From a virus, in the IMG/VR virus record IMGVR_UViG_3300028802_000057, positions 1 through 23,403 of that record: a stretch of 23,403 bases of DNA. One strand, given 5' to 3'. Both the position numbers and the translations under genes were made by a program. Shown in pieces: positions 2,996-22,320 of the stretch (position 1 is its first letter; each line of letters starts with the position of its first letter). Under the pieces are notes generated by a model, which was given only the letters and a program-made list of their open reading frames with translations, did not search any database and had not been told where the DNA came from.

Positions 2996-3031
2996 CCTGG
3001 CAAACGCGCAAAGTACAAGTCACGCGCCAGG
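2996..3031. repeat. Hairpin 1 of a tandem hairpin series
   Basis: Inverted repeat CCTGGC (2996-3001) and GCCAGG (3026-3031), extended outward by CTGCAG-containing arms (around 2984-2991 and 3035-3042) across a small internal loop. The weakest but one of the five hairpins in this series. Confidence 0.45.
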
Positions 3032-3066
3032 GAAAGCTGCAGTCACCCAACACGACGCAAGTCGAT

Positions 3067-3103
3067 CTCGAACATCTGAGCCAGTGGCGATGACGATGTT
3101 GAG
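3067..3103. repeat. Hairpin 2 of a tandem hairpin series
   Basis: AACATC (3071-3076) pairs with GATGTT (3095-3100), and CTC (3067-3069) with GAG (3101-3103) past a bulged G. The loop is 18 bases. Short stem, so significance rests mainly on its place in the series. Confidence 0.4.
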
Positions 3104-3143
3104 GAGGTCAGGACGGCGGCGCGGCAACTGGGTCTATCAATTC

Positions 3144-3213
3144 GAGAAAGCGCTGCGCGTAACCAGGACAACGCAGTTTGCACAGTCAGCCTGCATCGCG
3201 CGGCGCTCTTCTC
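3144..3213. repeat. Hairpin 3 of a tandem hairpin series
   Basis: Imperfect inverted repeat: GAGAAAGCGCTGCGCG (3144-3159) pairs with the complement at 3197-3213, with one bulge and one wobble pair. The loop is 37 bases. A CT-rich tract at 3207-3220 follows the second arm. Confidence 0.5.
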
Positions 3214-3218
3214 TCTCT

Positions 3219-3349
3219 CTTGCTGTTACGTCACGGCGCGGCATCTCGGATAGATGCAGCCGCTCTAGCGTTTCTTCGGCGCATGTCACGGTGCAAATCC
3301 TCACACGACGGGGCTGATCAGTCCGGTCGCGTCGTGACGCAACAGCAAG
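3219..3349. repeat. Hairpin 4: 22-base inverted repeat around a smaller hairpin
   Basis: Arms 3219-3240 and 3328-3349 are complementary at 20 of 22 positions; both mismatches are compatible with G-U or A-C wobble in RNA. The 87-base interior begins with a small hairpin, GCATCT-CGGAT-AGATGC (3241-3257). Two bases separate this element from the next hairpin. Confidence 0.65.
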
Positions 3350-3351
3350 AC

Positions 3352-3458
3352 GAACACTGCGATGCGGTGCGAGCGAGCTTCTCTCCGTCAAGATCGATGA
3401 CACACAGAGCAACGTGATCTTCGACGCGACATGGTCGCCTCACCGCATCGCAGTGTTC
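3352..3458. repeat. Hairpin 5: perfect 18-base inverted repeat
   Basis: GAACACTGCGATGCGGTG (3352-3369) has its exact complement at 3441-3458, with a 71-base interior. Inside, 3386-3395 pairs with 3416-3426 (ten pairs, one bulged G), making a long nested structure. It ends about 30 bases before the first gene of the plus operon, so it would lie in that transcript's leader if transcription begins upstream. Confidence 0.75.
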
Positions 3459-3489
3459 ATTCCGAACACACAACCGGAGTTACCAACCC

Positions 3490-3750
3490 ATGAAAATCAA
3501 AATCAACTGGCTCAACGAGAACCCCGGCGCGACGCCGGACGAGCGCGGCTACTGGATGTCAACGGAGCGGCGCTTCAGCATCAGTCCGCGCTACCGCCAC
3601 ACGGTCTATCCCGACAGCTACATGCTGGATGACCGCAACAGCATCGACAACAAGCAGACCTACAACACGGTCCGCGAAGCGAAGCAGGCGGCGCTCGACA
3701 TCGTCACCCGCGAGCTGGCGAACGAGCTTGGCCACATCAACGAACCCTAA
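3490..3750 (+). CDS. Hypothetical protein, first gene of the plus operon
   Basis: An 86-residue protein of unknown function. It starts at ATG 3490 with GGAG ten bases upstream. The sequence is mixed and soluble, with an aromatic/basic stretch (RRFSISPRYRHTVYPDSY) followed by a predicted helix (TVREAKQAALDIVTRELANELG). It has no signal or membrane segment. It is followed after 16 bases by another small gene of similar design (short N-terminal strands then a helical tail), so both are probably small phage accessory proteins made early in infection. Confidence 0.65.
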   Translation: MKIKINWLNENPGATPDERGYWMSTERRFSISPRYRHTVYPDSYMLDDRNSIDNKQTYNTVREAKQAALDIVTRELANELGHINEP

Positions 3751-3766
3751 CCAACAAGGAGCTACC

Positions 3767-3964
3767 ATGACGACCAACGACAAATTCCAGGCAGAGCAAG
3801 ACCCGAGCCGCAAGAACGGCTGGCGCATCGTGCGCGTCGAAGACGGCGAGCGCGTGCCGCTAAGTCAGCGGTTCAACAAAGAGCAGACGGCCCGCCAGCG
3901 CGCGTACGATCTGACGGTTGGCTACGAACACCGCCGCCATCGCTCGATCTATCTCGGCGACTGA
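3767..3964 (+). CDS. Hypothetical protein
   Basis: A 65-residue protein of unknown function. I chose ATG 3767 rather than an in-frame start at 3629, because 3767 has AAGGAG at the right distance and the longer version would overlap the previous gene by 120 bases. The sequence contains NGWRIVRVEDGERVPLSQRF, a short strand-turn-strand pattern, then a helix and an arginine/histidine-rich end. A GC hairpin (3978-3998) follows the stop codon. Confidence 0.65.
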   Translation: MTTNDKFQAEQDPSRKNGWRIVRVEDGERVPLSQRFNKEQTARQRAYDLTVGYEHRRHRSIYLGD

Positions 3965-3977
3965 GATGTTTCGCAAG

Positions 3978-3998
3978 CGCGCCGCTTCGTGCGGCGCG
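3978..3998 (+). promoter_or_regulatory. Intercistronic GC hairpin
   Basis: CGCGCCGC (3978-3985) and GCGGCGCG (3991-3998) form a perfect 8-pair stem with loop TTCGT. There is no T tract, so it is not a typical intrinsic terminator. It is one of a series of such stems before AAGGAG-type sites in this operon and may protect or process mRNA. Confidence 0.55.
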
Positions 3999-4037
3999 TC
4001 TCGAAGCACCAACGCTTCATCACCAAGGGAGCTAACA

Positions 4038-4274
4038 ATGTCTTTCTTCCTGAGCATCAAGGACGACAACGTCGTCATCACCCGCAACCACGGCGACGCG
4101 CTCGTCGTCGTCAGTAGCGTCGCAATGTTTCACCAGTACGTCGCGGGCATCGCGGCGGCGACCGGCGAGAAGATCGAGGACGTGCCGGTCTATGCATCGT
4201 CTTCGATGGATTTCCCCGAGGAGTTCACCGACAACCCCGACACCATCAAGCTGGCACGCGCGCTGCGTGCCTGA
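4038..4274 (+). CDS. Hypothetical protein
   Basis: A 78-residue acidic protein of unknown function. ATG 4038 was chosen because AAGGGAG lies seven bases upstream; an in-frame start at 3918 would run back into the previous gene. The N-terminal part looks like alternating strands (FFLSIKDDNVVITRNHGDALVVVSS) followed by a helix and a loop. No motif is recognised. It is the last gene before the structured 185-base gap that precedes the AAA+ ATPase cassette. Confidence 0.65.
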   Translation: MSFFLSIKDDNVVITRNHGDALVVVSSVAMFHQYVAGIAAATGEKIEDVPVYASSSMDFPEEFTDNPDTIKLARALRA

Positions 4275-4283
4275 TCATCACTA

Positions 4284-4418
4284 TCCAGTCCGGCGTAAGA
4301 GCCGCCCCCAAGAGACGCGCGAACTTGAAGCGAATATCGGGCGATGCCCGACGCGGGGAATAAGGGCGAACGTAGCGTGGCAGCCTCTGCAGGCGAACGA
4401 CCACTGTTACGGACTGGA
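4284..4418 (+). ncRNA. Possible structured RNA element between genes
   Basis: The 185-base gap at 4275-4459 has no gene. TCCAGTCCG (4284-4292) and CGGACTGGA (4410-4418) are perfect complements and would close the whole segment. Inside is a stable hairpin TCGGGC-GAT-GCCCGA (4337-4351) and G/C-rich runs that can pair further. The closing stem ends about 30 bases before the ribosome-binding site of the ATPase gene. It could be a leader structure, a processed small RNA or chance; I match it to no known family. Confidence 0.35.
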
Positions 4419-4459
4419 GCAGACATCATCAACCCGACCATCACGAAGGAGCATTTACG

Positions 4460-5503
4460 ATGGCACCCCTCACTAGCTTCAAAGAACACAGCTGCACCAT
4501 TGCCGAGGCCGCGATCCTGCTTCGGCTACTCACCGACGCCAACGACCCCGTCATGCTGTGGGGTCCTCCTGGCGTCGGCAAGTCGGACATCGTGCATCAG
4601 CTCGGTGTCGAGACTGACCGCAAGGTGATCGAGTTTCGTACCAACATCCGCGAACCAGTTGACGTGCGCGGGGTGCCGGTCCCCGATCCGAACACCGGCA
4701 CCACGCGCTGGTACGTCCCGGACGAGCTGCCGAACGTCAAGCGCGACGGCGAGCGTGGCATCCTCTTCATCGACGAGATCAACTCTGGCTCTTTGCAGAT
4801 GATGGCCGTGATGTTCGGCCTCGTGCTGGACCGCAAGGTCGGTGAGTACGTCCTCCCCGATGGCTGGGTGATCGTCGCTGCGGGCAACCGCGTCGGTGAT
4901 CGCGCGGCAGCGCAGCGGATGCCAACCGCGCTGCGTAACAGGTTCGCTCACGTTCACGTCCATTCCGCCATCGACCCGTGGTGCGACTGGGCGACCAAGA
5001 CCGGCATCGCGCCCGAGCTGGTTGCGTTTCACCGCTTCCGTCGCGGTGAGAACAACGGCGAAGGCCTGTTGCACGTCATGCCGAAAGGCGACGAGAACGC
5101 GTTTGCGACCCCACGGTCCTGGACGCGCTGCAGCAAGTACGTGAACGCGCCGAAGGCACATCGCCTGCGGCTGTTCGCGGCGCACGTCGGCGACACCTAC
5201 GCTGCGGAGCTGGACGGCTTCATCGACCTCTATCACAGCATCGGCTCGCTGGAAGAGATCGTGAAGCACCCGACCACGGCGAAGCTGCCGAGCGAGTCCT
5301 CGATACGTTACGCGGTCTGCACCGGGCTTGCCCGGCTCGCGAACAAGAAGACGTTCGCCAACATCGTCACCTACGCGGAGCGCTTGCCCCGCGAGTCACA
5401 GATACTCGTCGTCCACGATGCGACGCATCGCGACGAGACGCTGAAGAACACCTCAGTCTACGGCGACTGGGCGGTGAAGAACCAAGACCTCATCCTTCAG
5501 TGA
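4460..5503 (+). CDS. MoxR/CobS-like AAA+ ATPase
   Basis: A 347-residue ATPase of the MoxR group, hexameric chaperone-like machines that usually act together with a VWA-domain protein on a client. Visible motifs: Walker A GPPGVGKS (35-42), Walker B ILFIDE (101-106), sensor 1 asparagine in AAGNR (140-144), and an arginine-finger region TALRNRF (157-163). The C-terminal third is helical. It starts at ATG 4460 with GAAGGAG upstream. Two genes downstream lies an HExxH-VWA protein, the usual partner type, with a DUF3150-like gene between. CobS, the cobaltochelatase subunit, is the closest well-known relative, but nothing else here points to cobalamin synthesis, so I do not name it cobS. Confidence 0.88.
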   Translation: MAPLTSFKEHSCTIAEAAILLRLLTDANDPVMLWGPPGVGKSDIVHQLGVETDRKVIEFRTNIREPVDVRGVPVPDPNTGTTRWYVPDELPNVKRDGERGILFIDEINSGSLQMMAVMFGLVLDRKVGEYVLPDGWVIVAAGNRVGDRAAAQRMPTALRNRFAHVHVHSAIDPWCDWATKTGIAPELVAFHRFRRGENNGEGLLHVMPKGDENAFATPRSWTRCSKYVNAPKAHRLRLFAAHVGDTYAAELDGFIDLYHSIGSLEEIVKHPTTAKLPSESSIRYAVCTGLARLANKKTFANIVTYAERLPRESQILVVHDATHRDETLKNTSVYGDWAVKNQDLILQ

Positions 5504-5510
5504 TCACTAC

Positions 5511-5534
5511 GGGCGGCGCGATCCCGCGTCGCCC
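5511..5534 (+). promoter_or_regulatory. Intercistronic GC hairpin
   Basis: GGGCGGCGCG (5511-5520) and CGCGTCGCCC (5525-5534) form a 10-pair stem with one G-T pair and loop ATCC. It lies between the ATPase stop codon and the AAAGGAGC site of the next gene. No T tract follows. Confidence 0.6.
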
Positions 5535-5560
5535 GATCATCCTTCAAAGGAGCCTCTACC

Positions 5561-6454
5561 ATGAACGCAGATATCAAGACCCCGCTCTCCCGCAAGGCCG
5601 TGCTTGTCTCGGTCAACATCAGCCAATGGACAGCTCGCAAGCTGGACAAGAAGGTGACCGAGGACACGAACGACCGGCACCACGCGCAGAAGGATGCAGG
5701 CCGGTACAACAAATTGTTGATCGACCCGGAGCATCTCGCCGAGCTGACCTCCCTGGTCAGTAAGGCGCGCAAGACGCACTACGCACTGACGCAGCCGTGG
5801 GTCGATGAAGGCCCCCGCATCCTGGCGAACGTGATGTACAGCAAGTTCGCCGACGAATTCCGCACGCTCAAGCGTGAGTTTGCGGATGCCGCCGACCGCT
5901 TCTGTGCGGCCTACCCGGTGTACATCGAGCAGCGCAAGCGCGCGCTGAACGGCATGTTCAACGAGTCGGACTACCCCAGCCCCGACGAGATCAGGTCCAA
6001 GTTCGACCTGGACTACGAGGTGACGCCGTTCCTCGAAGCTGCCGACTGGCGGTCAGACCTCGACGACGACATCGTCGCCGAGATTCGCGCCGACCTCGAA
6101 GCCAAGTCGGTCAACGTGGTCGATAACGCGATGAAGCACACCATCGCGCAGATCGTCGAGCGCGTCGGCAAGATGGCGACCAAGCTGGCCGAGTTCAAAC
6201 CCTCGGGCGGCAAGGGCGACCCGGCTGAGAACACCTTCAAGGACACGCTCGTGGAGAACGTCCGCGAGCTGGCCGAGGTGCTGCCAGCCTTCAACCTGAC
6301 CAACGACCCGAAGCTGACCGAGATCACAGAGCGCATCAAACGCGAGCTGTGCGTCGAGGACGCCAAGGCGTTGCGTAAGAACGATGGCGCACGCGCCGTC
6401 GTCGCTAAGTCTGCCGAGGAAATCGTCAACGCGGTTTCCGAATTGTTCGGCTGA
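5561..6454 (+). CDS. DUF3150-like protein, middle gene of the ATPase/VWA cassette
   Basis: A 297-residue, largely helical, charged protein. The N-terminal half (VLVSVNISQWTARKLDKKV, then a K-rich segment, TQPWVDEGPRIL at about 81-92, and DYPSPDEIRSKFD at about 136-148) resembles the DUF3150 family, which is found in phages between a CobS/MoxR-type ATPase and a VWA protein. No catalytic motif is known or visible. The start ATG 5561 has AAAGGAGC upstream. Its fixed place between the two partners suggests an adaptor or substrate-recognition role. The family call is from memory of the motif layout, so it is moderate. Confidence 0.6.
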   Translation: MNADIKTPLSRKAVLVSVNISQWTARKLDKKVTEDTNDRHHAQKDAGRYNKLLIDPEHLAELTSLVSKARKTHYALTQPWVDEGPRILANVMYSKFADEFRTLKREFADAADRFCAAYPVYIEQRKRALNGMFNESDYPSPDEIRSKFDLDYEVTPFLEAADWRSDLDDDIVAEIRADLEAKSVNVVDNAMKHTIAQIVERVGKMATKLAEFKPSGGKGDPAENTFKDTLVENVRELAEVLPAFNLTNDPKLTEITERIKRELCVEDAKALRKNDGARAVVAKSAEEIVNAVSELFG

Positions 6455-6466
6455 TCATCACTGCAG

Positions 6467-6488
6467 GGCGGCGCTCAGGCGCGCCGCC
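6467..6488 (+). promoter_or_regulatory. Intercistronic GC hairpin
   Basis: GGCGGCGC (6467-6474) and GCGCCGCC (6481-6488) form a perfect 8-pair stem with a six-base loop, between the DUF3150-like gene and the AGAGGAGC site of the VWA gene. Confidence 0.55.
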
Positions 6489-6530
6489 TCACAGTGCTGA
6501 GGCACTATCATCCACACAGAGGAGCAAACG

Positions 6531-8042
6531 ATGTTTACCAATGACGACCTCAATACACTCAACACGATGGCTCGCGTCGAACGCGCTCGCGTTCGGCTGC
6601 AGCTTGAGAAGCGTTTCTACGCGGCGCTGATCGGTCGCGTCGAAGCAGTGATCGACGACAAGGTCGAGACTGCGGCGACCAACGGCAAGAACCACTTTTG
6701 GAATCCGACATTCGTCGCGGAGCTGAGCGACGACGAACTGTTCGGCGTGCAGATGCACGAGAACGAACACGACGCGCGCCATCACAGCACGCGTCGCTGC
6801 GGTCGCGATCCGCTGGAGTGGAATATCTGTTGCGACTACGCGATCAACATTGACCTCGTAGACGACGGCGTGAAGCTGCCCAAGGGCGCGTTGATCGATC
6901 CGAAATATCGCGGCATGAGCGCGGAAGACATCTTCCGCAGCCGCGAGCTGGATCGGGAGCGGGCCAAAAAGCAGCCGCAGCCCGAACCCGAGGAGCAGGA
7001 CGAGGACGGCGACGCCCCCGACCAAGCCGACACCAACCCCGGCCAGGGCAACCAGGACGACGACCAGGACGACGACCAGGACGATGCATCGCAGGACACG
7101 AACGTGTCAGGCGATGATGGCGACCAGGGCGACGACCAGGACGGCGACCAAGGCGACGACCAGGGCAAACCGGAACCCGGCCAGGGCAAGCCAGCCCAGG
7201 GGACGGGCGCTGGTGAGCCGGACGACCAGGGCGAGGGCGAAGGTAGCCCGACCCCAGGGAATCAAGCCGGTGAGGCTGGCTCCGAGGCTGGCGAGCCTGC
7301 CAAGGGCAAACCGACCTCCGGCCAGGGCGATCCGGGCCGGTGCGGCGAGGTGCTGGACGCGCCCGAAGGCACCGATCTGGTCGAGGAAGACATCGAGGTC
7401 GAGAAGGCCGTCCGGCAGGCGGTCAGCATGGCCAAGAAGCACGGCCAGCTGCCCGGCTACATCACCCGCGAGATCGACCGCGCCAACAACCCGACCAGGG
7501 ACTGGCGCGACGAGCTGCGGGAGTTCTGCGAGCAAGGCGCGCTCAGCATCGAGACTTGGAATCGCCCGAACCGGCGGTTCGTCGGTCGCGGTCTGATCCT
7601 GCCCGGCACGCAGCGGGACGGCGTGAACAAAGCGATCTTCGCCATTGATACCTCTGGTTCGATGGATGCGGTCGCCTTGGCTTGCGTACGTAACGAGGCG
7701 CAGGCGCTGCTTGATGACGGCGTCATCGATCAGGTTGCCGTGCTGTACTGCGACACACGAGTTACTCGTGAAGACCTGTACAGCACCGGGGACGAGATCG
7801 AGTTCGACCCGAAGGGCGGCGGCGGCACAAGGCTGCAGCCGATGTTCGATCACATCAGCGAACAGCACCAGGACGCTTCGCTGATCGTGTGCTTCACCGA
7901 CGGCTACACCGACATCAACAACGACAGCCCGGAGCCTGCTTGCCCCGTGCTGTGGGCGTTCACCGGCTACCCCGATGAGGTTCGTCGCATGATCGCGAAC
8001 GCACCTTGGGGCGCGAAGGCGGTGGACGTAGGAGCGCATTGA
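6531..8042 (+). CDS. HExxH metallopeptidase-like and VWA domain protein (DUF2201 type)
   Basis: A 503-residue protein in three parts. Residues 1-140 resemble the DUF2201 N-terminal putative metallopeptidase domain: HENEH (76-80) fits HExxH, followed by NICCDYAINIDLVDDG and LPKGALIDPKYRGMSAEDIF. Residues about 141-290 are a low-complexity acidic linker rich in D, Q, G, E and P with tandem DDQGDDQ-like units, probably disordered. Residues about 365-503 are a VWA-like domain with the metal-binding DTSGS (373-377) and CFTDGYTD. Such proteins normally pair with a MoxR ATPase, as here. The substrate is unknown. Whether the zinc site is active is unproven, because the third ligand is not certain. 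Start ATG 6531 has GAGGAGC upstream. Confidence 0.85.
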   Translation: MFTNDDLNTLNTMARVERARVRLQLEKRFYAALIGRVEAVIDDKVETAATNGKNHFWNPTFVAELSDDELFGVQMHENEHDARHHSTRRCGRDPLEWNICCDYAINIDLVDDGVKLPKGALIDPKYRGMSAEDIFRSRELDRERAKKQPQPEPEEQDEDGDAPDQADTNPGQGNQDDDQDDDQDDASQDTNVSGDDGDQGDDQDGDQGDDQGKPEPGQGKPAQGTGAGEPDDQGEGEGSPTPGNQAGEAGSEAGEPAKGKPTSGQGDPGRCGEVLDAPEGTDLVEEDIEVEKAVRQAVSMAKKHGQLPGYITREIDRANNPTRDWRDELREFCEQGALSIETWNRPNRRFVGRGLILPGTQRDGVNKAIFAIDTSGSMDAVALACVRNEAQALLDDGVIDQVAVLYCDTRVTREDLYSTGDEIEFDPKGGGGTRLQPMFDHISEQHQDASLIVCFTDGYTDINNDSPEPACPVLWAFTGYPDEVRRMIANAPWGAKAVDVGAH

Positions 8043-8049
8043 TAACTAA

Positions 8050-8073
8050 CCCGGCGGCAATGGTGCCGCCGGG
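8050..8073 (+). promoter_or_regulatory. Intercistronic GC hairpin
   Basis: CCCGGCGGCA (8050-8059) and TGCCGCCGGG (8064-8073) form a perfect 10-pair stem with loop ATGG. It follows the VWA gene and precedes the AAAGGAGCAAAC site of the next gene. The bases after it are ATTCTC, too poor in T for a standard terminator. Confidence 0.65.
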
Positions 8074-8092
8074 GATTCTCAAAGGAGCAAAC

Positions 8093-8353
8093 ATGGCTAG
8101 TGTCTACGAGCTACAACAGAAGGCGCTGACACATCGCGCCTACGACGACAGCCTGCGCTCGGCTGCCGACCGCGCGTTCCGCGACAAGGGTGCGTGCTTC
8201 ACCGTTTACTTCGACGGCGAAGCGATCTTCGTCCGCGCGTCAGAGGCTGCGCGCCCCGCCAACTCGGTGGTGGTGTGCATCGCCCAGTACTGGGCCGACC
8301 GTACGGTCCAGCTCCGCTTCGATGGAGCGCGGTCCGAGTGGATCGCGTTCTAA
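8093..8353 (+). CDS. Hypothetical protein
   Basis: An 86-residue soluble protein of unknown function. ATG 8093 is fixed by the AAAGGAGCAAAC ribosome-binding site immediately upstream; a longer in-frame start would run into the VWA gene. It has a helical N-terminus (ELQQKALTHRAYDDSLRSAADRAF) and a strand-rich end (CFTVYFDGEAIFVRAS and TVQLRFDG). The first gene after the ATPase cassette, but with its own hairpin and ribosome-binding site, so a link to the cassette is not established. Confidence 0.65.
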   Translation: MASVYELQQKALTHRAYDDSLRSAADRAFRDKGACFTVYFDGEAIFVRASEAARPANSVVVCIAQYWADRTVQLRFDGARSEWIAF

Positions 8354-8362
8354 CAAACAACA

Positions 8363-8379
8363 CTGGGCGATCCGCCCAG
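8363..8379 (+). promoter_or_regulatory. Intercistronic GC hairpin
   Basis: CTGGGCG (8363-8369) and CGCCCAG (8373-8379) form a 7-pair stem with loop ATC, just after the preceding stop codon and ahead of an AAAGGAGC site. Confidence 0.5.
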
Positions 8380-8412
8380 CCCAACATTCCAAACCACAAA
8401 GGAGCAAGCCAC

Positions 8413-8625
8413 ATGACCAACGTCCAGGTTCACCCTGCACTCGGCGCTGCTATCGCCAGCGCTGTCAACACCCGCTGCCTCGCCAGCGAGATGATCCACA
8501 ATGCGCTGTACGCCAAGCCGTACAAGCACGAGGACTTCCTGTTCTGGCGCGGCGAACACATCACTGCAACGCAGCGGCTCGCCGTGATGGGCATCCCGTT
8601 GCCGACCTACGAGGTGAAGCCATGA
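8413..8625 (+). CDS. Hypothetical protein
   Basis: A 70-residue protein of unknown function, mostly helical (ALGAAIASAVNTRCLASEMIHNALYA) with a tryptophan-containing turn (DFLFWRGEHITATQRL). ATG 8413 follows AAAGGAGC by about seven bases. Its stop overlaps the start of the cysteine-cluster gene in an ATGA arrangement, so the two are probably translated together. No motif or family is recognised. Confidence 0.6.
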   Translation: MTNVQVHPALGAAIASAVNTRCLASEMIHNALYAKPYKHEDFLFWRGEHITATQRLAVMGIPLPTYEVKP

Positions 8626-9098
8626 CCAACCACTGCGGCAGCTGCACCGCGTGCTGCCTCGTGTTTAACGTCCCCGCGTTGGACAAAGATGCTGGCAAGT
8701 GGTGCCAACATTGCAGTGTTGGTGTTGGCTGCAAGATTTACGAACAGCGACCAACGATGTGCCAGGACTTTTCCTGCCTGTATTTGTTGAGCCAGGAAGA
8801 GGGTCGGCCACACCTACCGCCGGAGCTTCGGCCTGACCGCTGCCGCATCGTGTTCTCACCAAGCACCAACGAGCGGGTCATGGCAGGCACCATCCTGCCG
8901 AACACACCGAACGCGCTCGACCGTAAGGGCGTGCGCCAACTGATCGAGTCGTTGGTCGGCGGCGGCATGTCCGTTGTTCTAGGCACGCCGAAGTCAACCA
9001 ACCGCGTCTTGATCAACCGCGAAGGCGCTCACCCGATCCGGATGACCGAGCCAGACGAGAGCGGCATGCAGTACAACATCGAAGAGGAGGAACGATGA
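8622..9098 (+). CDS. CxxCxxCC-type cysteine cluster protein (YkgJ-like)
   Basis: A 158-residue protein beginning with CGSCTACC (residues 5-12), the CxxCxxCC signature of the YkgJ-like putative zinc- or iron-binding family. More cysteines follow at 28, 31, 37, 47 and 52 (KWCQHCSVGVGC, then RPTMCQDFSC), enough to hold one or more metal ions. The C-terminal half has no cysteine and is mixed. Biochemical function of the family is unclear. It starts inside the previous stop (ATGA) and its own stop overlaps the next start (ATGA), giving a tight three-gene translation unit with the HNH-like gene. Confidence 0.75.
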   Translation: MTNHCGSCTACCLVFNVPALDKDAGKWCQHCSVGVGCKIYEQRPTMCQDFSCLYLLSQEEGRPHLPPELRPDRCRIVFSPSTNERVMAGTILPNTPNALDRKGVRQLIESLVGGGMSVVLGTPKSTNRVLINREGAHPIRMTEPDESGMQYNIEEEER

Positions 9099-9385
9099 GT
9101 CTCGGTAACACCAAGCACGGCTACTCTCCCAGAAAGAAGAGAACGCCAACTTACCGCACGTGGCTGTCCATGATGACGCGATGCATGAACGCCAACTCCA
9201 ACGACTACAAGAGATGGTACGGCGGTCGCGGCATCACCGTCTGCAAGCGGTGGAAGAAGTTCGAGAACTTCCTCGCTGACATGGGCGAGCGTCCTGAAGG
9301 AAAGACGCTCGACCGCAAGAACCCAAACGGTAACTACACTTCCAAGCAACTGTCGCTGGGCGACGCACAGCGAACAGCGAACTAA
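9095..9385 (+). CDS. HNH-like phage protein, C-terminus altered by a frameshift
   Basis: The 96-residue product has TYRTWLSMMTRCMNAN, WYGGRGITVCKRWKKFENFLADMGERPEGKTLDR and NGNY, characteristic of a common phage family related to HNH/AP2-type nucleases. The family usually ends with a SNCRWAT-x-x-EQ-x-x-N motif. Here the frame ends differently (SKQLSLGDAQRTAN), but the +1 frame reads SNCRWATHSEQRTN. Removing one T at 9340-9341 restores an unbroken family-like protein ending at 9410. So this copy carries a one-base insertion, a sequencing error, or less likely uses programmed frameshifting. It starts by an ATGA overlap with GAGGAGG upstream. Confidence 0.75.
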   Translation: MSLGNTKHGYSPRKKRTPTYRTWLSMMTRCMNANSNDYKRWYGGRGITVCKRWKKFENFLADMGERPEGKTLDRKNPNGNYTSKQLSLGDAQRTAN

Positions 9386-9395
9386 CAGACGCGTT

Positions 9396-9503
9396 CCCGA
9401 CACCCCGTGAGGGGTAACTCGGTCGGGTAGCGTGCGGCTCGGCTTTCAGAAAGGTGACCTGCGGCCTTCACGGGGTCATGGGTAACTACCGTTCAAGGTC
9501 ACC
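9396..9503 (+). promoter_or_regulatory. Structured intergenic segment with stacked hairpins
   Basis: CCCGAC (9396-9401) pairs with GTCGGG (9422-9427), enclosing ACCCC-GTGA-GGGGT (9402-9415). Further on, GGTGACCT (9453-9460) pairs perfectly with AGGTCACC (9496-9503). The segment lies before the AAAGGAGCAAAC site of the 54-residue gene and has no coding ORF of note. The first hairpin overlaps the end of the restored HNH-like frame. Confidence 0.45.
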
Positions 9504-9532
9504 GACGCACGCATCAATTCAAAGGAGCAAAC

Positions 9533-9697
9533 ATGATCATCGACGCCGACAAGGACTACGTCATCGAAGGCCGCATCCTCGCGCGGCTGTTCAAGATCGC
9601 CGAGCGTTTCAACGACGGCACCAAGATCGACGCGAACGAGCGACGCGATCTCGCTCAAGAACTGCGGGCCAAGCTGGAAACAGCAACGCCCGTTTAA
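9533..9697 (+). CDS. Small hypothetical protein
   Basis: A 54-residue charged protein, translated by me from ATG 9533, which follows AAAGGAGCAAAC exactly as in several neighbouring genes. The sequence (EGRILARLFKIAERFNDGTKIDANERRDLAQELRAKLE) is strongly helical and amphipathic and may form a helical hairpin or dimer. No family is recognised. The perfect ribosome-binding site makes it likely to be expressed in spite of its small size. Confidence 0.7.
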   Translation: MIIDADKDYVIEGRILARLFKIAERFNDGTKIDANERRDLAQELRAKLETATPV

Positions 9698-9725
9698 CCC
9701 CCAACTGCTCAAAGGAGCAAACAAC

Positions 9726-10214
9726 ATGCAAGCATCTAAGATCAAGATCGGCGGCCTCTATGCCATCCGGCTGGAGGACGAACTCGTCCGCTTCGAGGTT
9801 TCCGAAGTGGTCACCCGGCGCGTCAGCGCACATGGCAACCCGCACGACTTCAAGTCCCACGTGCTGGGCCGCGTCCGCGAGGGCAACAACTCGGTGGTGA
9901 ACATCGGCTTCGGTAGCGGCGGCAAGGAGATCACGGTCGGCCCCGATGCCCTGCTCGGCTTCTACGACGAACACGTCGAGCTTGTCGCTCGCGCCAACGT
10001 AGAGAAGGCAGCAAAGGAAAAGGCCGAGCAAGACCAGACGGCGAAGCTGCAGGAGCTTTGGCGGTTGCTCTACGCCAAGACCGGCATGGTGATGCCGAAC
10101 GACGATGCCGATTACAAGCAACCGTTCCGGCAAGCGTATGGCCGCGCAGTGGAGATTCGCGACAACGGCATCGAGCCGCTGCTCGACTATCTCCGCAACA
10201 GTGAGCGGAGGTAA
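9726..10214 (+). CDS. Hypothetical protein
   Basis: A 162-residue protein of unknown function. ATG 9726 follows AAAGGAGCAAACA. Residues 1-80 look like a small beta-rich domain (KIGGLYAIRLEDELVRFEVSEVVTRRV, with a glycine-rich turn GFGSGGKEITVGPDALLGF). Residues 85-115 are an alanine/lysine/glutamate helix that could form a coiled coil, and the end is helical. The layout (barrel plus helix) is common in phage accessory proteins but gives no function. The next gene begins two bases after its stop. Confidence 0.7.
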   Translation: MQASKIKIGGLYAIRLEDELVRFEVSEVVTRRVSAHGNPHDFKSHVLGRVREGNNSVVNIGFGSGGKEITVGPDALLGFYDEHVELVARANVEKAAKEKAEQDQTAKLQELWRLLYAKTGMVMPNDDADYKQPFRQAYGRAVEIRDNGIEPLLDYLRNSERR

Positions 10215-10216
10215 CG

Positions 10217-10543
10217 ATGGCTAACAAACCGCAGCCGATGCTGTGGCTCAGCGATGCGCGGGGGCAATACATCCCCCGCGACTTCGCCAGCTCGTTTGCT
10301 GACCGCGCCAAGTACGTGACCGGCGTGAGCGATGAAGACTGGACGATCCTCGAAGCAGGCCCCGATCACGAACACTACTGGGACGCATGGCAAGAGGTCG
10401 AGCAGAAGGCACGCATCACCGATAGCGACGGCAACGCCTTCACGATCTACCAGGACAGCGACTGCTGGCTCATCCCAGTCGGGATGGACTGGAGCGACAA
10501 GGACGACTGGTTCGTCTGGCCAGAGGAGGAAGCTGATGACTGA
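10217..10543 (+). CDS. Conserved phage hypothetical protein
   Basis: A 108-residue, very acidic protein. The phrases LWLSDARGQYIPRDFASSF, GVSDEDWTILEAGPDHEHYWDAWQEV and DGNAFTIYQDSDCWLIP recall a small protein found in many phages and mobile elements, with no known function. The high negative charge and DNA-free composition could suit a DNA mimic, but nothing shows this. Start ATG 10217 has GGAGG a few bases upstream. The end overlaps the next start by eight bases. Confidence 0.7.
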   Translation: MANKPQPMLWLSDARGQYIPRDFASSFADRAKYVTGVSDEDWTILEAGPDHEHYWDAWQEVEQKARITDSDGNAFTIYQDSDCWLIPVGMDWSDKDDWFVWPEEEADD

Positions 10544-10856
10544 TCTGCACGCTAAATATCTCAAGCTCGCACGCGAGCATACCCAAAGGAGCAACATCGT
10601 GACACGGGAGCAAGCGCTTCCCTACGTGACGGCCTGCGTTGACGACGCGCTGGCCGTTCGATCTATCGACGAGATGCCCGACAACGCGCGGCTCGTCGGC
10701 TGGCAATGCGGCTTCGAACCGTTGTTCGTGGCCGTGTGGTCCTACCTCCCCGGCATTGAGCTTGAAGACTCCGAGGCCGAGGAGATCGCCCGCGACTATC
10801 TGCTTGAGCGTGGCTGGTTCAGCACCGCTCAGACGGAAGCCGATTTTATTATCTGA
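10536..10856 (+). CDS. Hypothetical protein with two possible starts
   Basis: The frame gives 106 residues from ATG 10536 (AGAGGAGG upstream) or 85 residues from GTG 10599, which follows the operon's standard site AAAGGAGCAAC. Both sites look functional, so two forms may be made. The common part is acidic and helical (REQALPYVTACVDDALAV, then EDSEAEEIARDYLLERGWF) and contains a central GWQCGFEPLFVAVWSYL stretch. No family is recognised. The upstream start overlaps the previous gene, as elsewhere in this operon. Confidence 0.65.
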   Translation: MTDLHAKYLKLAREHTQRSNIVTREQALPYVTACVDDALAVRSIDEMPDNARLVGWQCGFEPLFVAVWSYLPGIELEDSEAEEIARDYLLERGWFSTAQTEADFII

Positions 10857-10872
10857 CAAAAGGAGCAGACGA

Positions 10873-11091
10873 ATGACTGTCCCCGTACTACCCGAGCGTC
10901 GGCAACTGCCGAAGCTCATCGACAACGATGAAGGCTGCATCACTGTCGAGCTGAATGGCGAAGAGATTCGCGGCTGGACTTACGACACCGATCACCAGCG
11001 ACGCCAGAAAATGTTGTATGCTCGGGAGTTCATGAACGGCTGGCTTACCGCCAGGAATTTCATCTACACCGGCAGCACCGAGGAAGACTGA
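10873..11091 (+). CDS. Hypothetical protein
   Basis: A 72-residue protein of unknown function from ATG 10873, with AAAAGGAGC upstream. It has a short beta-rich start (CITVELNGEEIRGWTYD) followed by a helix (DHQRRQKMLYAREFMNGWLTARNFI) and an acidic end. Its stop overlaps the start of a one-span membrane peptide by one base, so the two are likely coupled. Confidence 0.65.
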   Translation: MTVPVLPERRQLPKLIDNDEGCITVELNGEEIRGWTYDTDHQRRQKMLYAREFMNGWLTARNFIYTGSTEED

Positions 11092-11183
11092 TGCGTAGCG
11101 AGGACGCCATCGCGATATTCGTGGTGCTGACGTTCTCGTTCGCGTTGGTCGCGTGGGCCATGCTTGTCATGGGCCGCTTCTAA
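11091..11183 (+). CDS. Tiny single-span membrane peptide
   Basis: A 30-residue peptide that I read from ATG 11091, in a TGATG overlap with the previous gene. After the charged start MRSED, residues 7-27 are continuously hydrophobic (AIAIFVVLTFSFALVAWAMLVMG), long enough to span the inner membrane, ending in RF. Function is unknown; small phage membrane peptides can act in lysis or superinfection control, but nothing here favours either. It is followed by a 13-pair hairpin. Confidence 0.55.
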   Translation: MRSEDAIAIFVVLTFSFALVAWAMLVMGRF

Positions 11184-11184
11184 G

Positions 11185-11217
11185 TACCCCGCGCCGGGGC
11201 GAAACCGGCGCGGGGTA
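11185..11217 (+). terminator. Strong 13-pair hairpin, possible terminator or mRNA boundary
   Basis: TACCCCGCGCCGG (11185-11197) and its exact complement (11205-11217) flank the loop GGCGAAA. The stem starts one base after the membrane-peptide stop codon. AGAGCCAGACCC follows rather than T residues, so full intrinsic termination is doubtful; RNA protection or partial termination is as likely. Confidence 0.5.
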
Positions 11218-11250
11218 GAGCCAGACCCTTACAAACAAAAGGAGCCTACC

Positions 11251-11802
11251 ATGCCGAAGAAGCTAAAGACTATCGAAGAGATCGATGCGGCCATCGCCCG
11301 ATGGCAGACCAGGGCAAAGCGCGCCCTGACTACGCTTGAGAAGCTGCGCGTGCAGCGCAAGCGGCTGGCGAGGAAGGCACACCTCGCTGACCTCGTCGCG
11401 CACAAGCCGGTCGTCACCTACTCGAAGACGCCGCCACCCATGACGCCAGCCCTCGCGCAGGCTGTCACGGAGCTAACGCGCCCGGTGCATCCGGCCAACA
11501 TCGAGTCGGCAATGCTGCACGGCAAGACCCAGTCCATGGGCATCGTCACCGACGTGCCGAACGACGATGACCAGGGCATCCCTGCCTTCCTGCAACGCAA
11601 CCGCGCCGAGTTCAAAGCGGACATCGACGCGGCCAAGGCGAAGGACGCCGCGCGAGCGGCGGAGATCAAAGCGGAGCAGGCCGAGCGCAAGAAAGAAAAG
11701 GCGCGCGGTCGCATCGCCAAGATGAAAGCCAAGCAGGCTGGCGACCTGAAGAAGATGCCGCTAACAGGACGCGCCGCACTCGACGCGATCAAGAACGGCT
11801 GA
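11251..11802 (+). CDS. Alanine/lysine-rich helical protein
   Basis: A 183-residue basic protein from ATG 11251 with AAAAGGAGC upstream. Residues 1-50 are a helical, coiled-coil-like segment (EEIDAAIARWQTRAKRALTTLEKLRVQRKRLARK). The middle is proline-rich and probably flexible, and residues about 130-170 are a long alternating K/A/E/R helix. Such make-up suits a scaffolding-like or nucleic-acid-binding protein, but no motif allows a call. It stands alone between two strong hairpins. Confidence 0.65.
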   Translation: MPKKLKTIEEIDAAIARWQTRAKRALTTLEKLRVQRKRLARKAHLADLVAHKPVVTYSKTPPPMTPALAQAVTELTRPVHPANIESAMLHGKTQSMGIVTDVPNDDDQGIPAFLQRNRAEFKADIDAAKAKDAARAAEIKAEQAERKKEKARGRIAKMKAKQAGDLKKMPLTGRAALDAIKNG

Positions 11803-11807
11803 CACTA

Positions 11808-11832
11808 CCCCGGCAGCATCCCGCTGCCGGGG
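11808..11832 (+). terminator. Terminator-like hairpin
   Basis: CCCCGGCAGC (11808-11817) and GCTGCCGGGG (11823-11832) form a perfect 10-pair stem with loop ATCCC, followed by CTTTCCTCCC. The weak T tract suggests partial termination. The AAAGGAGC site of the next gene is about ten bases further on. Confidence 0.5.
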
Positions 11833-11857
11833 CTTTCCTCCCAAAGGAGCAATGACA

Positions 11858-12352
11858 ATGAGCGACATACGAAAGTTCTTTGAGAACTGCCAGAAAGCGT
11901 TCGGCAAGAACGCCTACAACGACTTCATGCTGACGCACGGTCACGCGTACAACTTCGGTCCGCACACGTTCAAGGGGCCACGGCAGGAAGCAAACAACTG
12001 CTACGGCAACGCACTGCACACTGCCATGGACAAGGGCCTGACCTACGTCGAAGGCAAGGTGCTAGTCCACGGCGTGCCGATAGATCACGCGTGGTGCGTC
12101 GATGCCGACGGCTTCGTCGTCGATCCCACCATCGTGTACAAAGGACAGGTCACCGAATACTTCGGCGTCCCGTTCCTCACCAAGTACGCAGCCCGAGCGG
12201 TCGCCCGCAACGGTATCTATGGTCTGCTCGACATCGTGTTCGCCGATCAGACTGCGCCCAAGCTGTACGAGCTGGGCCTGGAGGCCGGACAAAAGTGGCT
12301 GCTCGATCAGCCGTTCAAGGTTAAGAGAGCCAAGCAGAGGAGGACAGCATGA
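11858..12352 (+). CDS. Possible Cys-His-Asp (papain/transglutaminase-fold-like) protein
   Basis: A 164-residue protein. A cysteine in NNCYGNA (C48), a histidine in IDHAWCV (H78) and an aspartate in GFVVDPT (D89) occur in the order and spacing expected of a Cys-His-Asp triad, with VEGKVLVHG as a strand between. A similar N-C-Y-x-N-A … HAW … DPT pattern recurs in phage and bacterial proteins of unknown function. Enzyme activity (peptidase, amidase or transferase) is inference. ATG 11858 is preferred to 11852 because AAAGGAGC is seven bases from it but only one base from the other. Its stop overlaps the next start (ATGA). Confidence 0.6.
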   Translation: MSDIRKFFENCQKAFGKNAYNDFMLTHGHAYNFGPHTFKGPRQEANNCYGNALHTAMDKGLTYVEGKVLVHGVPIDHAWCVDADGFVVDPTIVYKGQVTEYFGVPFLTKYAARAVARNGIYGLLDIVFADQTAPKLYELGLEAGQKWLLDQPFKVKRAKQRRTA

Positions 12353-12684
12353 GCTGGGACATTGACGACCGGCAGCGCAGACAGCGGCATCTCGCCAAGA
12401 TGCTGTCGGTCATGGTTGCGCTGACGGTGTTCGGCACTGCGGTGATCGCCTTGCTGCTGATGGTAACAGCAGCGGGGCATGCGCAGGGCTGGCCGGGAAG
12501 CGTCGAGCGAACCTACCGCAACGAGATGGGCCAGGAGGTCGGGCGATCCACCACCGACAGCAAAGGCAACACCACGTACCGCGACAACATGAGCCGCGAG
12601 ACGGGGCGCTCGACCACTGACGCCAACGGCACGACCACGTTCCGCGACAACATGGGCCGCACCACCGGCACGGTGCGCAAATGA
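12349..12684 (+). CDS. Membrane-anchored or secreted repeat protein
   Basis: A 111-residue protein with a basic N-terminus (residues 1-16), a hydrophobic segment (17-41: AKMLSVMVALTVFGTAVIALLLMV) and an AGHA-QG sequence that may be a signal cleavage site. The outer part, residues 55-111, is made of about 2.5 imperfect copies of a 20-residue unit around YRDNMGRETGRSTTD-x-x-G-N-T-T. The repeat resembles short RDS-G-R-x-T-G repeats seen in rhizobial proteins. It overlaps both neighbours in ATGA arrangement. A surface or envelope role is likely, with function unknown. Confidence 0.65.
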   Translation: MSWDIDDRQRRQRHLAKMLSVMVALTVFGTAVIALLLMVTAAGHAQGWPGSVERTYRNEMGQEVGRSTTDSKGNTTYRDNMSRETGRSTTDANGTTTFRDNMGRTTGTVRK

Positions 12685-12896
12685 CCGGCACTGAACTGGA
12701 GCAGGCCATCGACAAGGTGGGCTTCGCGTCGTACGCCGAGGCCTCGCGCTTCTTCGAGGTCAACGACAGCACGGTCAGGCGCTGGATCACCAAGCAGCAC
12801 GAAATACCACGCTCCGTTGAAATAGTGCTGCGGCTGATGGAGCGATACCACCTGACACCGAACGGCGTCGCCATCATCATGGGGACGCGCAAATGA
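12681..12896 (+). CDS. HTH DNA-binding protein, last gene of the operon
   Basis: A 71-residue protein with a helix-turn-helix: YAEASRFFEVNDSTVRRWITKQHEIPRSVEIVLRLMERY (residues about 18-56). This is the pattern of small phage regulators in which S-T-V-R-R-W forms the recognition helix and the IPRSVEIVLRLM helix lies behind it. It is small enough to act as a dimeric repressor or activator. It starts by an ATGA overlap with the repeat protein and is directly followed by an intrinsic terminator. Confidence 0.75.
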   Translation: MTGTELEQAIDKVGFASYAEASRFFEVNDSTVRRWITKQHEIPRSVEIVLRLMERYHLTPNGVAIIMGTRK

Positions 12897-12901
12897 AAAT
12901 G

Positions 12902-12936
12902 GCCCCGGTCATCGCAAGATGGCTGGGGCTTTTTTT
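12902..12936 (+). terminator. Rho-independent terminator of the plus operon
   Basis: GCCCC (12902-12906) pairs with GGGGC (12925-12929) and CATC (12910-12913) with GATG (12918-12921), joined by wobble pairs, with loop GCAA. Seven T residues follow (12930-12936). The flank on the other side is A/T-rich, so it may also stop transcription coming from the helicase block, which ends at 13055 in the opposite direction. Confidence 0.9.
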
Positions 12937-13054
12937 ATGTCCAGAAACACGAAGAGGCGGCCAACTTTCGCTGACCACCTCTCCGGTCTATCCGGGGCGA
13001 GCCAAAGGCAAAGGAGCAAACCTCGCTCAAGCACGCTCGGAAGGAGCCAGGACA
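12937..13054. other. Gap between convergent operons with orphan ribosome-binding site
   Basis: An open frame begins at ATG 12937 inside the terminator T tract, but has no ribosome-binding site and reads into the opposite gene, so I do not call it. At 13009-13021 the sequence AAAGGAGCAAAC is the operon's standard start signal, yet no ATG, GTG or TTG follows in place. It looks like the remains of a lost gene. Confidence 0.4.
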
Positions 13055-13252
13055 TTAGGGTGCGTCGCGGACCTTTTCAAGCGTCCGCTGGACCGCAGCC
13101 ATAGCACACGTGCGTGCCGTAGCCTCAGCCGTCGTCATCTTCTTCTCGCCAACCAGCCGGGCGTAGACCTTCTGCCGCATCCTCACCTCGCGCTTGACCT
13201 CCTCGATCTGCTCGCCCAGCGTCACCCGCGCGATCACATCCTCTCCGGCCAT
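13055..13252 (-). CDS. Small phage hypothetical protein
   Basis: A 65-residue helical protein from ATG 13252 with GGAGGGGA upstream. The core (EEVKREVRMRQKVYARLVGEKKMTTAEATARTCAMAAVQRTLEKV) matches the pattern of a small protein found in many phages, E-x-x-R-E-x-x-x-R-x-x-V-Y-x-x-L-V-x-x-x-K-M-T, for which no function is known. An in-frame start at 13396 would duplicate the upstream gene's region, so I reject it. It is the last gene of the helicase block and overlaps the preceding gene by 19 bases. Confidence 0.75.
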   Translation of the reverse strand: MAGEDVIARVTLGEQIEEVKREVRMRQKVYARLVGEKKMTTAEATARTCAMAAVQRTLEKVRDAP

Positions 13253-21024: not shown

Positions 21025-21700
21025 TCGAGTCTCCTCTGGTTGGTAGGTGTTGACTGCAAAACCAAGTGCCGAATTCACCATTGCGGATGGTGCCTGTAGA
21101 AAAGCTCTGTGTCGCGTACGCCCCGCACTGACAGTAGGCAACAAAGCGGCCCTGCTCGTCGAAGCCAACGAAGCCAGCCAGACCCTTGCGCGTGTTCTGT
21201 CGTCTGCGAAGCTCTTCTCTTAATTCCTGCGGTGGCTTCATGATCGGATCGTTGCGCGGGATGAAGTAGCCGCCGCCATCGGTCCGCTTCACCTCCCAGT
21301 ATTTCTGTTGCTTGCCCTCGTAGCCCCAGCACCATGCGACGATCTGGTACTGTGGATGTGCCGAAACATCGACAAGCAGGTACGCCCAGTGATCGGGCTT
21401 CTTCGGCGAGATCAAGAGTCGGCGATACGAATCCGCGACGCCCTTTACGTCGATAAAATCATCCAGGTCAGCATCGGTGTGGCGCAATGAAAACGCGTTC
21501 CATGTCACGGGGTTCATGTAGAGTTTCCCGGCGGCCTCGGCTCTGGCACCGAGTATGTCCAGCGGCAGCGCGCGCTCATCATCCTCCGGAGCGCCCTGCG
21601 ACCCGCGCCAGTTGTTATCCGCCGCATTCCGTCTGCGCTTCACCGCGATCTTGTCGGCGAAGTCGATGTGCAGCGCCTCCATCGTAACCCACTCGATCAT
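20972..21700 (-). CDS. Putative PD-(D/E)XK nuclease-like phage protein
   Basis: A 242-residue protein from ATG 21700, in an ATGA overlap with the methyltransferase stop. The segment ILGARAEAAGKLYMNPVTWNAF, then DADLDDFIDVKGV and a strand LISPKKPDHWAYLLVDV, fits an E-x(n)-D-x(n)-DxK arrangement of the PD-(D/E)XK fold. The segment PQYQIVAWCWGYEGKQ follows as in related phage proteins. C-terminal cysteines (YCQCG, WFCSQH) may bind zinc. Catalysis is inferred from spacing only, so the call is moderate. The last residues overlap the 42-residue gene. Confidence 0.55.
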   Translation of the reverse strand: MIEWVTMEALHIDFADKIAVKRRRNAADNNWRGSQGAPEDDERALPLDILGARAEAAGKLYMNPVTWNAFSLRHTDADLDDFIDVKGVADSYRRLLISPKKPDHWAYLLVDVSAHPQYQIVAWCWGYEGKQQKYWEVKRTDGGGYFIPRNDPIMKPPQELREELRRRQNTRKGLAGFVGFDEQGRFVAYCQCGAYATQSFSTGTIRNGEFGTWFCSQHLPTRGDSNGSKESGTARAAASGDA

Positions 21701-22284
21701 GCTTCGTTGCCCCACCTACTCCAGCCCTTGCGCGGCCTGCGCGCATTGAGTTCGATCTTCGGCAGGCTTGGGTAGTACTCCTCGATGATCCGGTAGAACA
21801 CGTCAGGCTTGACGCTGTGCCTGCCGCGCACAGCTTCGATCACCGACGACCACTGCGTCCCTGGTGCCGGTGCCGGAATTCTGCCGCGCGTGCCGACCAG
21901 GAGCAGCTCGTGCTTGTTACGAAACCAGTAGCCGGTGCCATTGCGGTCCTTCGCCCAGACCATGTGCGACTTGTACTTGAAGCCCCACGCGTCCATGACC
22001 TCAAGCGCCTGCGGCAGCATCGGCTGCGTCGCCCACAGAAACAGCGCGCAGTGCTTCGCCGCGATGCTTTCCACGGACCGCGCCTTGATCACCGCCAGCA
22101 ACGATGTCGGGTAGTGATTGTCGGCGGCTCGGTCCATGCCGGTCTTGCGCGAGTACGGCTCGAACCGCCATTCGGGATCGGCCAGGATCACGCCGTACTT
22201 CTTGCGCGGCAGCGCTCTGATCTTCTTGGCCAGCGTGCGCTCACGAAGTCGGCGCAGCCGCTGCTTGTCGAGAGCTGAGTCCAT
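21697..22284 (-). CDS. MT-A70 family DNA N6-adenine methyltransferase with DPEW motif
   Basis: A 195-residue protein of the MT-A70 fold, which transfers a methyl group from SAM to adenine N6. Typical phrases are present: GVILADPEWRFEPYS, AADNHYPTS, CALFLWATQPMLPQALEVMDAWGFKYKSHMVWAKD, GTGYWFRNKHELLLVGTRG and a C-terminal R-W-G-N-E-A. The catalytic motif reads DPEW (36-39) where the family has DPPW. Start ATG 22284 is used; TTG 22320, directly after the previous stop, would add 12 residues and cannot be excluded. It lies just downstream of a GcrA-like regulator. Confidence 0.88.
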   Translation of the reverse strand: MDSALDKQRLRRLRERTLAKKIRALPRKKYGVILADPEWRFEPYSRKTGMDRAADNHYPTSLLAVIKARSVESIAAKHCALFLWATQPMLPQALEVMDAWGFKYKSHMVWAKDRNGTGYWFRNKHELLLVGTRGRIPAPAPGTQWSSVIEAVRGRHSVKPDVFYRIIEEYYPSLPKIELNARRPRKGWSRWGNEA

Positions 22285-22320
22285 CCCAGAATCTATACAA
22301 GCGAAGTTTGCGATGCGCAA

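Follow-up and report, generated by a model that had tools for sequence, protein, structure and literature searches.

The window analysed here, the 23,403-base virus record IMGVR_UViG_3300028802_000057, carries three adjacent genes on its + strand (4460-8042), which encode an AAA+ ATPase, a DUF3150-like protein and a DUF2201 protein that joins a zincin-like metallopeptidase domain to a VWA domain. The MoxR-VWA chaperones RavA-ViaA, NorQ-NorD and CbbQ-CbbO also combine an AAA+ ATPase with a VWA partner, and NorD is a structure match of the window's VWA protein; to our knowledge, a zincin domain and a DUF3150 protein are absent from these pairs. MoxR-VWA pairs mature large complexes, as listed in the available passages of PMC7159879. 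The same passages describe ternary conflict systems made of MoxR, vWA and a third component, with peptidases sometimes fused to the vWA protein. These systems differ from the trio in their third part, which is a beta-propeller instead of a DUF3150-like protein, and in their ATPase, as the bpMoxR model (PF20030) scores 18.2 with the window ATPase, below its cut-off of 27.

The pair of an ATPase and a metallopeptidase-VWA protein is itself already in print, for jumbo phages and for N4-like phages, whose core genes include genes 24 and 25 of N4 (PMC4193335, available part). The jumbo phages concerned belong to group 2.2; their MoxR-vWA pair includes an N-terminal metallopeptidase and was proposed to act in virion assembly (PMC7824862, available part). 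Its proteins ASV44728/ASV44729 resemble the window genes in architecture, with an AAA+ ATPase beside a protein joining a metallopeptidase to a VWA domain. Unlike in the window, DUF3150 is not named in the available part of that paper, and the proposed virion role contrasts with a trio that also occurs on plasmids. By profile, gp24 and gp25 of N4 belong to the same ATPase and VWA families as the window proteins, and gp25, named 'HNH endonuclease' in RefSeq, keeps HELWH and DTSGS; in contrast to the window, this two-gene version has no DUF3150-like gene in the 17 kb examined. In the archaeal virus ATV, a MoxR ATPase binds a VWA protein (p618-p892), and both have been connected with the development of the tail (PMC4124505, available part). 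The resemblance to the window lies in the viral MoxR ATPase with a VWA partner; p618 differs in being a virion component, and the ATV proteins have no peptidase domain according to the available part of PMC7824862. A literature search, with most subscription papers outside its coverage, found no paper on DUF3150 in a role with an ATPase and a zincin-VWA protein.

The three proteins of the window

The trio consists of three adjacent larger genes within a + strand block of mostly small genes (~3.5-12.9 kb). An earlier note on this DNA had placed three genes at 4460-8042, and the open reading frames were confirmed there, each closely preceded by a purine-rich ribosome-binding site (aaggag before 4460, aaaggag before 5561, agaggag before 6531). 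The genes and domains are as follows.

4460..5503, + strand: AAA+ ATPase, AAA_5 family, MoxR-like in the wide sense, 347 amino acids, phrog_1297 (Pfam, PHROGs)
5561..6454, + strand: DUF3150-like partner protein, 297 amino acids, mostly helical with a small sheet (Pfam, model, homologues)
6531..8042, + strand: DUF2201 protein, 503 amino acids, with N-terminal zincin-like domain, disordered linker and C-terminal VWA domain (phrog_1314)
6531..6980, + strand: zincin-like domain, about residues 1-150, with HENEH at 76-80 and N98, D102 and N106 of WNxxxDxxIN
6993..7340, + strand: acidic low-complexity linker, about residues 155-270, predicted disordered, with a mean predicted local distance difference test score (pLDDT) mostly of 40-60
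7614..8042, + strand: VWA domain, about residues 362-503, with DTSGS at 373-377 and the metal-ion-dependent adhesion site (MIDAS) residues D373, S375, S377, T433 and D457

The ATPase has intact Walker A (GPPGVGKS) and Walker B (LFIDE) motifs, as the earlier note had claimed, together with the sensor N143 and the arginine R161. Among 101 aligned relatives, K41 is kept in 100, D105 in 99, N143 in all and R161 in 97. The protein scores above the Pfam cut-off for AAA_5 (PF07728, 28.7 bits against 22), matches PHROG 1297 with E 1e-84 and stays below the cut-off for MoxR proper (AAA_3, PF07726, 15.7 against 27). A profile of 15 ATPase relatives gave the AAA domain of midasin as top solved-structure match (E 2e-27). 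Because AAA_3 is below its cut-off and the best solved-structure match is the midasin domain, the earlier name 'MoxR/CobS-like' has to be qualified: judging by these matches, 'MoxR-like' is correct only in a wide sense.

For the middle protein, the score with Pfam DUF3150 (PF11348, 21.8 bits, E 1.4e-4) lies below the gathering cut-off of 24.9, and because of this score it is named 'DUF3150-like' here. Its AlphaFold model, built from 108 sequences, has a mean pLDDT of 95.6, and the top match of the model among viral predicted structures is a phage protein named DUF3150 (template modelling score 0.86). DUF3150 is matched at E <= 0.001 by 51 of the 108 aligned homologues and is the only family to reach that level. 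The protein thus shares a fold and a sequence continuum with named DUF3150 proteins, in agreement with the earlier assignment. Among solved structures, VIA-align gave only helical-bundle matches of up to Z 9.8 (6dg6, root-mean-square deviation 2.7 over 97 residues), a level about which the tool warns, and the middle-protein profile (A4) reached a best E of 0.056 against the sequences of solved structures.

The third protein scores well above the cut-offs for DUF2201_N (PF13203, 140.7 bits against 23.2) and DUF2201 (PF09967, 53.7 against 26.4). The hidden Markov model searches therefore returned both the DUF3150 and the DUF2201 similarity on which the earlier note had staked its interpretation, and the putative HExxH metallopeptidase joined to a VWA domain with DTSGS was recovered as proposed. 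In 117 aligned homologues the full HExxH motif is present in 113 and its glutamate in 114, while the MIDAS residues are exact in 116, the remaining one having a serine in place of the threonine. As both motifs are conserved over these homologues and the three genes stay together, the occurrence of the two motifs in this sequence goes beyond chance. Part of the 117 rows was retrieved by a pattern based on WNxxxDxxIN, so that its conservation is in part a product of how the rows were chosen; this does not apply to HExxH and MIDAS. D102, kept in 116 of 117 rows, many of them picked by a pattern demanding this aspartate, is a candidate third metal ligand of the zincin-like domain.

A profile of 54 N-terminal domains matched the M48 peptidase structure 3c37 (E 8e-4) and, more weakly, structures of MJ1213, HtpX and BepA (E 0.05-0.5), in each case across the HExxH region; the metal ligands of the domain are putative and its catalysis is presumed. 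The predicted structure runs from an ordered N-terminal domain through the disordered acidic linker to a C-terminal part that is again ordered and has a VWA fold. This fold aligns to solved VWA folds with Z ~12 (root-mean-square deviation ~3 over ~137 residues), and the match to NorD of the NorQ-NorD complex has an E of 9e-4.

Two further candidate identities were rejected. The label HNH endonuclease is carried by PHROG 1314, by gp25 of N4 (NC_008720) and by many RefSeq phage records; the window protein has no HNH match in Pfam up to E 0.1, and the label is probably a wrong one that has been propagated for DUF2201 metallopeptidase-VWA proteins. As to known anti-phage defence systems, PADLOC gave only weak matches for the ATPase (E of at least 0.011) and none for the other two proteins.

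Conservation of the trio in viruses

Viral contigs were surveyed twice. The survey via the middle protein gave 78 loci, of which 75 new ones were counted; the survey via the VWA protein used the best 80 of 541 matches, of which 77 new loci were counted, so that its counts describe the closest relatives. All three genes were found in 70 of the 75 loci of the first survey, and in 41 of 41 where at least 5 kb was available on each side. The second survey gave the trio in 61 of 77 loci and the middle gene in 65, with the trio in 30 of the 32 loci with at least 5 kb on each side. Nine of these 77 loci, identified by contig name from the tables, are contigs of the first survey and all hold the trio; once they are removed, the middle gene is present in 56 of 68. 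The three genes form a conserved unit.

Which genes are present varies less than their order, for which at least three arrangements exist. The order ATPase-middle-VWA was found in 53 and 49 loci of the middle-protein and VWA surveys, respectively, ATPase-VWA-middle in 9 and 2, and middle-ATPase-VWA in 7 and 10; one divergent arrangement, with the middle gene on the opposite strand, occurs in the middle-protein survey. Mapped on the middle-protein tree, in which many branches are weakly supported, these orders require 14 changes, and the well-supported branches alone require at least 4 for the commonest order. The check on a conserved three-gene order named in the earlier note came out in favour of its interpretation, although the company of the genes is kept more strictly than their sequence along the DNA. 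The distance matrices of the three proteins correlate over 101 loci (r 0.83-0.89, permutation maximum 0.16), and no other gene family is found beside the trio in more than 22 of the 101 loci.

Phages with the pair alone

Searched with tblastn against 50,697 phage records, the window ATPase matched 786 and the VWA protein 493, the middle protein only 4. Among isolated phages the three-gene form is thus rare, or too divergent for tblastn. Eleven isolated phages were examined in detail. Ten have the ATPase and the VWA protein, all ten VWA proteins with HExxH and DxSxS, and only in MinM2 is the middle protein present in addition. In Tunturi_3, the eleventh, the stretch examined encodes a DUF3150 protein but neither the ATPase nor the VWA protein. 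Neither the N4-like phages nor phage G yielded a remote DUF3150 when searched with the middle-protein profile, also at full sensitivity. DUF3150 is the usual third part in the branch of the window and not in N4-like phages, a distinction that is new here.

In two metagenomic loci the ATPase and VWA genes flank a gene for a DUF6744 protein (L106, 7037-7915; L167, 1024-1860), and a third (L140) has a similar-looking protein without a Pfam match in the middle slot. DUF6744 is possibly an alternative adaptor. The pair sits among dCTP deaminase, helicase or DNA polymerase genes in the N4-like phages examined, and two genes from a gene annotated as virion structural in cyanophage S-TIM5.

Plasmid copies in Burkholderiaceae

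Among 77 bacterial loci retrieved via the middle protein, 30 hold the trio, and 27 of these are from Burkholderiaceae according to their record titles. Twenty-five Burkholderiaceae loci have at least 5 kb downstream; a virB11 homologue is found in 23 and a virB4 homologue in 22 of them, on the same strand and within 4 kb. In these 23 loci the trio lies upstream of virB11, the identification being checked with Pfam at one locus. Within 72,556 plasmid records, the middle protein of one bacterial copy (L178) matches 37 (16 conjugative and 8 mobilizable in PLSDB) and its VWA protein 64 (17 conjugative and 10 mobilizable). On a Paraburkholderia plasmid the trio stands immediately upstream of the virB11-to-virB4 genes and traD. 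A Cupriavidus plasmid typed as conjugative has no annotated secretion gene in the 35 kb around the trio, the PLSDB gene table being incomplete. Both plasmids carry PRTRC cassettes, with ParB- and ThiF-related genes, at ~12 kb or less from the trio (L265:40640-46547 and L266:22718-28533). The presence of the trio on plasmids of Burkholderiaceae, in most cases immediately before the conjugation genes virB11/virB4, is also new here. In 200 genomes drawn from the phylum of the L178 genome, DUF2201_N was above its cut-off in 4 and DUF3150 in 2, so both are uncommon in cellular genomes of that phylum.

DUF3150 beside a second kind of ATPase

None of the other 45 bacterial loci (L206-L250), whose sources include Planctomycetes, Deltaproteobacteria and Nitrospirota, has a VWA match; in L247 the opposite strand shows a faint match to the ATPase. 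A CDC48/FtsH-type AAA ATPase is found near DUF3150 in 30 of the 45 and a DUF1257-type protein in 21, the type being named for two of the ATPases and assigned to the others by homology. Where at least 4.5 kb of upstream sequence was available, DUF3150 lies downstream of such an ATPase in 23 of 25 VWA-less loci. The search profile (A1) included the protein of Tunturi_3, itself of this kind, which aided the recovery of these loci. We take the ATPase and the DUF1257 proteins to resemble Ycf46 and Ycf35 of chloroplasts and cyanobacteria. These ATPase-DUF1257-DUF3150 systems of Planctomycetes and other bacteria share with the window a DUF3150 homologue beside an AAA+ ATPase, but the ATPase is of another clade, and DUF2201_N is absent from the one such genome checked (G002). 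DUF3150 looks like a reusable AAA+ partner, which also stands beside an unrelated CDC48/FtsH-type ATPase; this, too, is new here.

Proposed role and alternatives

With a probability of roughly one half, we propose that the trio is an ATP-driven machine with a tethered zincin that remodels a non-virion client protein and is carried by mobile elements. In such a complex, the AAA_5/MoxR-like ATPase would form a ring and supply force, and the VWA domain would dock to the ring or the client via its MIDAS, like other MoxR-VWA pairs. The zincin domain, on its long flexible acidic tether, may cut the client once it is presented or unfolded, while the DUF3150-like protein would serve the AAA+ ring as adaptor or scaffold. 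The adaptor role is suggested by the position of DUF3150 downstream of the CDC48/FtsH-type ATPase in the 23 of 25 VWA-less loci and by DUF6744 filling its slot in two phage loci. The client would most likely be a protein that is not part of the virion, from either host or element, and important to phages and transferring plasmids alike, as suggested by the 23 of 25 loci with the trio upstream of virB11 and by the conjugative and mobilizable plasmid records.

Several observations weigh against this proposal. Foldseek found no fold relative of the DUF3150-like protein among solved structures at E <= 0.001, so that the fold gives no hint of an adaptor. N4-like, jumbo and other isolated phages have the ATPase-VWA pair without a detectable DUF3150, and an adaptor is therefore not essential to the pair; the idea of a three-part unit in the earlier note is supported by the conservation of the trio, but not for these phages. 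A perfect HExxH is absent in 4 of the 117 homologues. In addition, the Paraburkholderia loci L179, L183 and L187 and the plasmid copy in L265 have lost HExxH and kept DxSxS, and L177 has an altered zincin motif. As this plasmid clade keeps the rest, the peptidase part appears dispensable and cutting not always needed. Between remodelling and cutting the evidence is balanced, with the HExxH glutamate kept in 114 of 117 homologues, yet a plasmid clade without the motif. Finally, the shared descent of whole phages would also produce correlated distances of the three proteins.

More tentatively, the trio may be a weapon shared by mobile elements, an ATP-dependent protease that unfolds and cuts a host protein, for example a defence factor, so that an arriving phage genome or a plasmid in conjugation can settle. 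The DUF3150 adaptor and the VWA domain, acting as a hook, would feed the AAA+ ring in this reading. Exchange of the adaptor (DUF3150, DUF6744 or none) could then redirect the protease to another target, with DUF3150 as a general AAA+ adaptor family that moved between unrelated ATPases. If the target is important to phages and plasmids, the trio would represent a class of mobile-element proteases driven by ATP, and a function as portable AAA+ adaptor could be assigned to DUF3150. Among the hundreds of phage records with ATPase and VWA relatives is that of N4, whose core genes include the pair and for which the available passages give no function; grown in laboratory E. coli, N4 makes the ATPase-VWA part directly testable.

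Virion assembly or maturation, in which an ATPase-VWA chaperone would help to build the particle while structural proteins are trimmed by the tethered peptidase, is an unlikely general role. It was proposed for the jumbo-phage pair and agrees with the link of the ATV proteins to tail development (PMC7824862 and PMC4124505, available parts) and with the S-TIM5 pair lying close to an annotated virion structural gene. However, the same trio is found on plasmids, which make no virion and therefore make this role less likely as the general one. The gene neighbours of the N4-like pairs also argue against it, and the only structural genes recurring beside the trio are of terminase type, on the other strand and in 18-22 of 101 loci (identities assigned by eye). 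From the plasmid copies, a role common to phages and plasmids is more likely, with which virion assembly in phages is still compatible, and host takeover or anti-defence, both named in the earlier note, are more plausible than virion assembly as a general role.

We consider it quite unlikely that the trio is an assembly chaperone for envelope or secretion machines, namely the type IV secretion system on plasmids and the ejection or tail machine in phages. Such a role would suit the position of most Burkholderiaceae copies directly upstream of virB11-virB2-virB3-virB4 genes and the maturation of large complexes by MoxR-VWA pairs (PMC7159879, available part), but not the surroundings of the trio on the Cupriavidus plasmid, and next to the copies in phages no family of tail genes recurs.

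Still harder to sustain is the maturation of metal centres, with insertion of a metal or cofactor as by NorQ-NorD, CoxD-CoxE or CobS-CobT and an HExxH that binds metal without cutting. In its favour are an ATPase match to a PHROG with the label porphyrin biosynthesis (E 3.7e-10), the appearance of NorD in the structure matches to the VWA protein and, in the gene just downstream of the trio (8637-9098, + strand), a weak match, below the cut-off, to the metal-chelating CxxCxxCC family. Yet this gene does not belong to the families that recur beside the trio, nor does any metalloenzyme recur there, and the HExxH glutamate, unneeded for metal binding, is conserved; metal handling, a further suggestion of the earlier note, found no specific support. 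That the three genes are unrelated neighbours, together by chance or through inheritance of whole phage genomes, is very improbable, since the set persists through changes of order and in viral and plasmid loci while other neighbours turn over, even though shared descent would also predict the correlated distances.

Other genes in the window

The + strand block that holds the trio ends at a terminator-like hairpin, identified by consensus match only.

12901..12930, + strand: terminator-like hairpin with T run

One sigma-70-like promoter site was found in 3000-13200, and none close to the trio. Four further genes of the block were scanned for virion families without a match, those at 9726-10214 and 11852-12352 with Pfam and PHROGs and those at 8637-9098 and 9095-9385 with Pfam. 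The large terminase is encoded on the - strand at the left end of the window (Pfam, PHROGs), and near the terminase genes lies a gene for a NusG-like protein (PF02357; 2079-2546, - strand), possibly an antiterminator.

At the other end, a homologue of the cell-cycle regulator GcrA (22321-22818, - strand) scores above its Pfam cut-off. The usual range of GcrA is the alphaproteobacteria, and its presence suggests an alphaproteobacterial host. The adjoining gene encodes an MT-A70 family methyltransferase (21697-22320, - strand), and the two may form a host-mimicking methylation pair. A YdaS/Cro-like DNA-binding protein is encoded at 22818-23093 (- strand).

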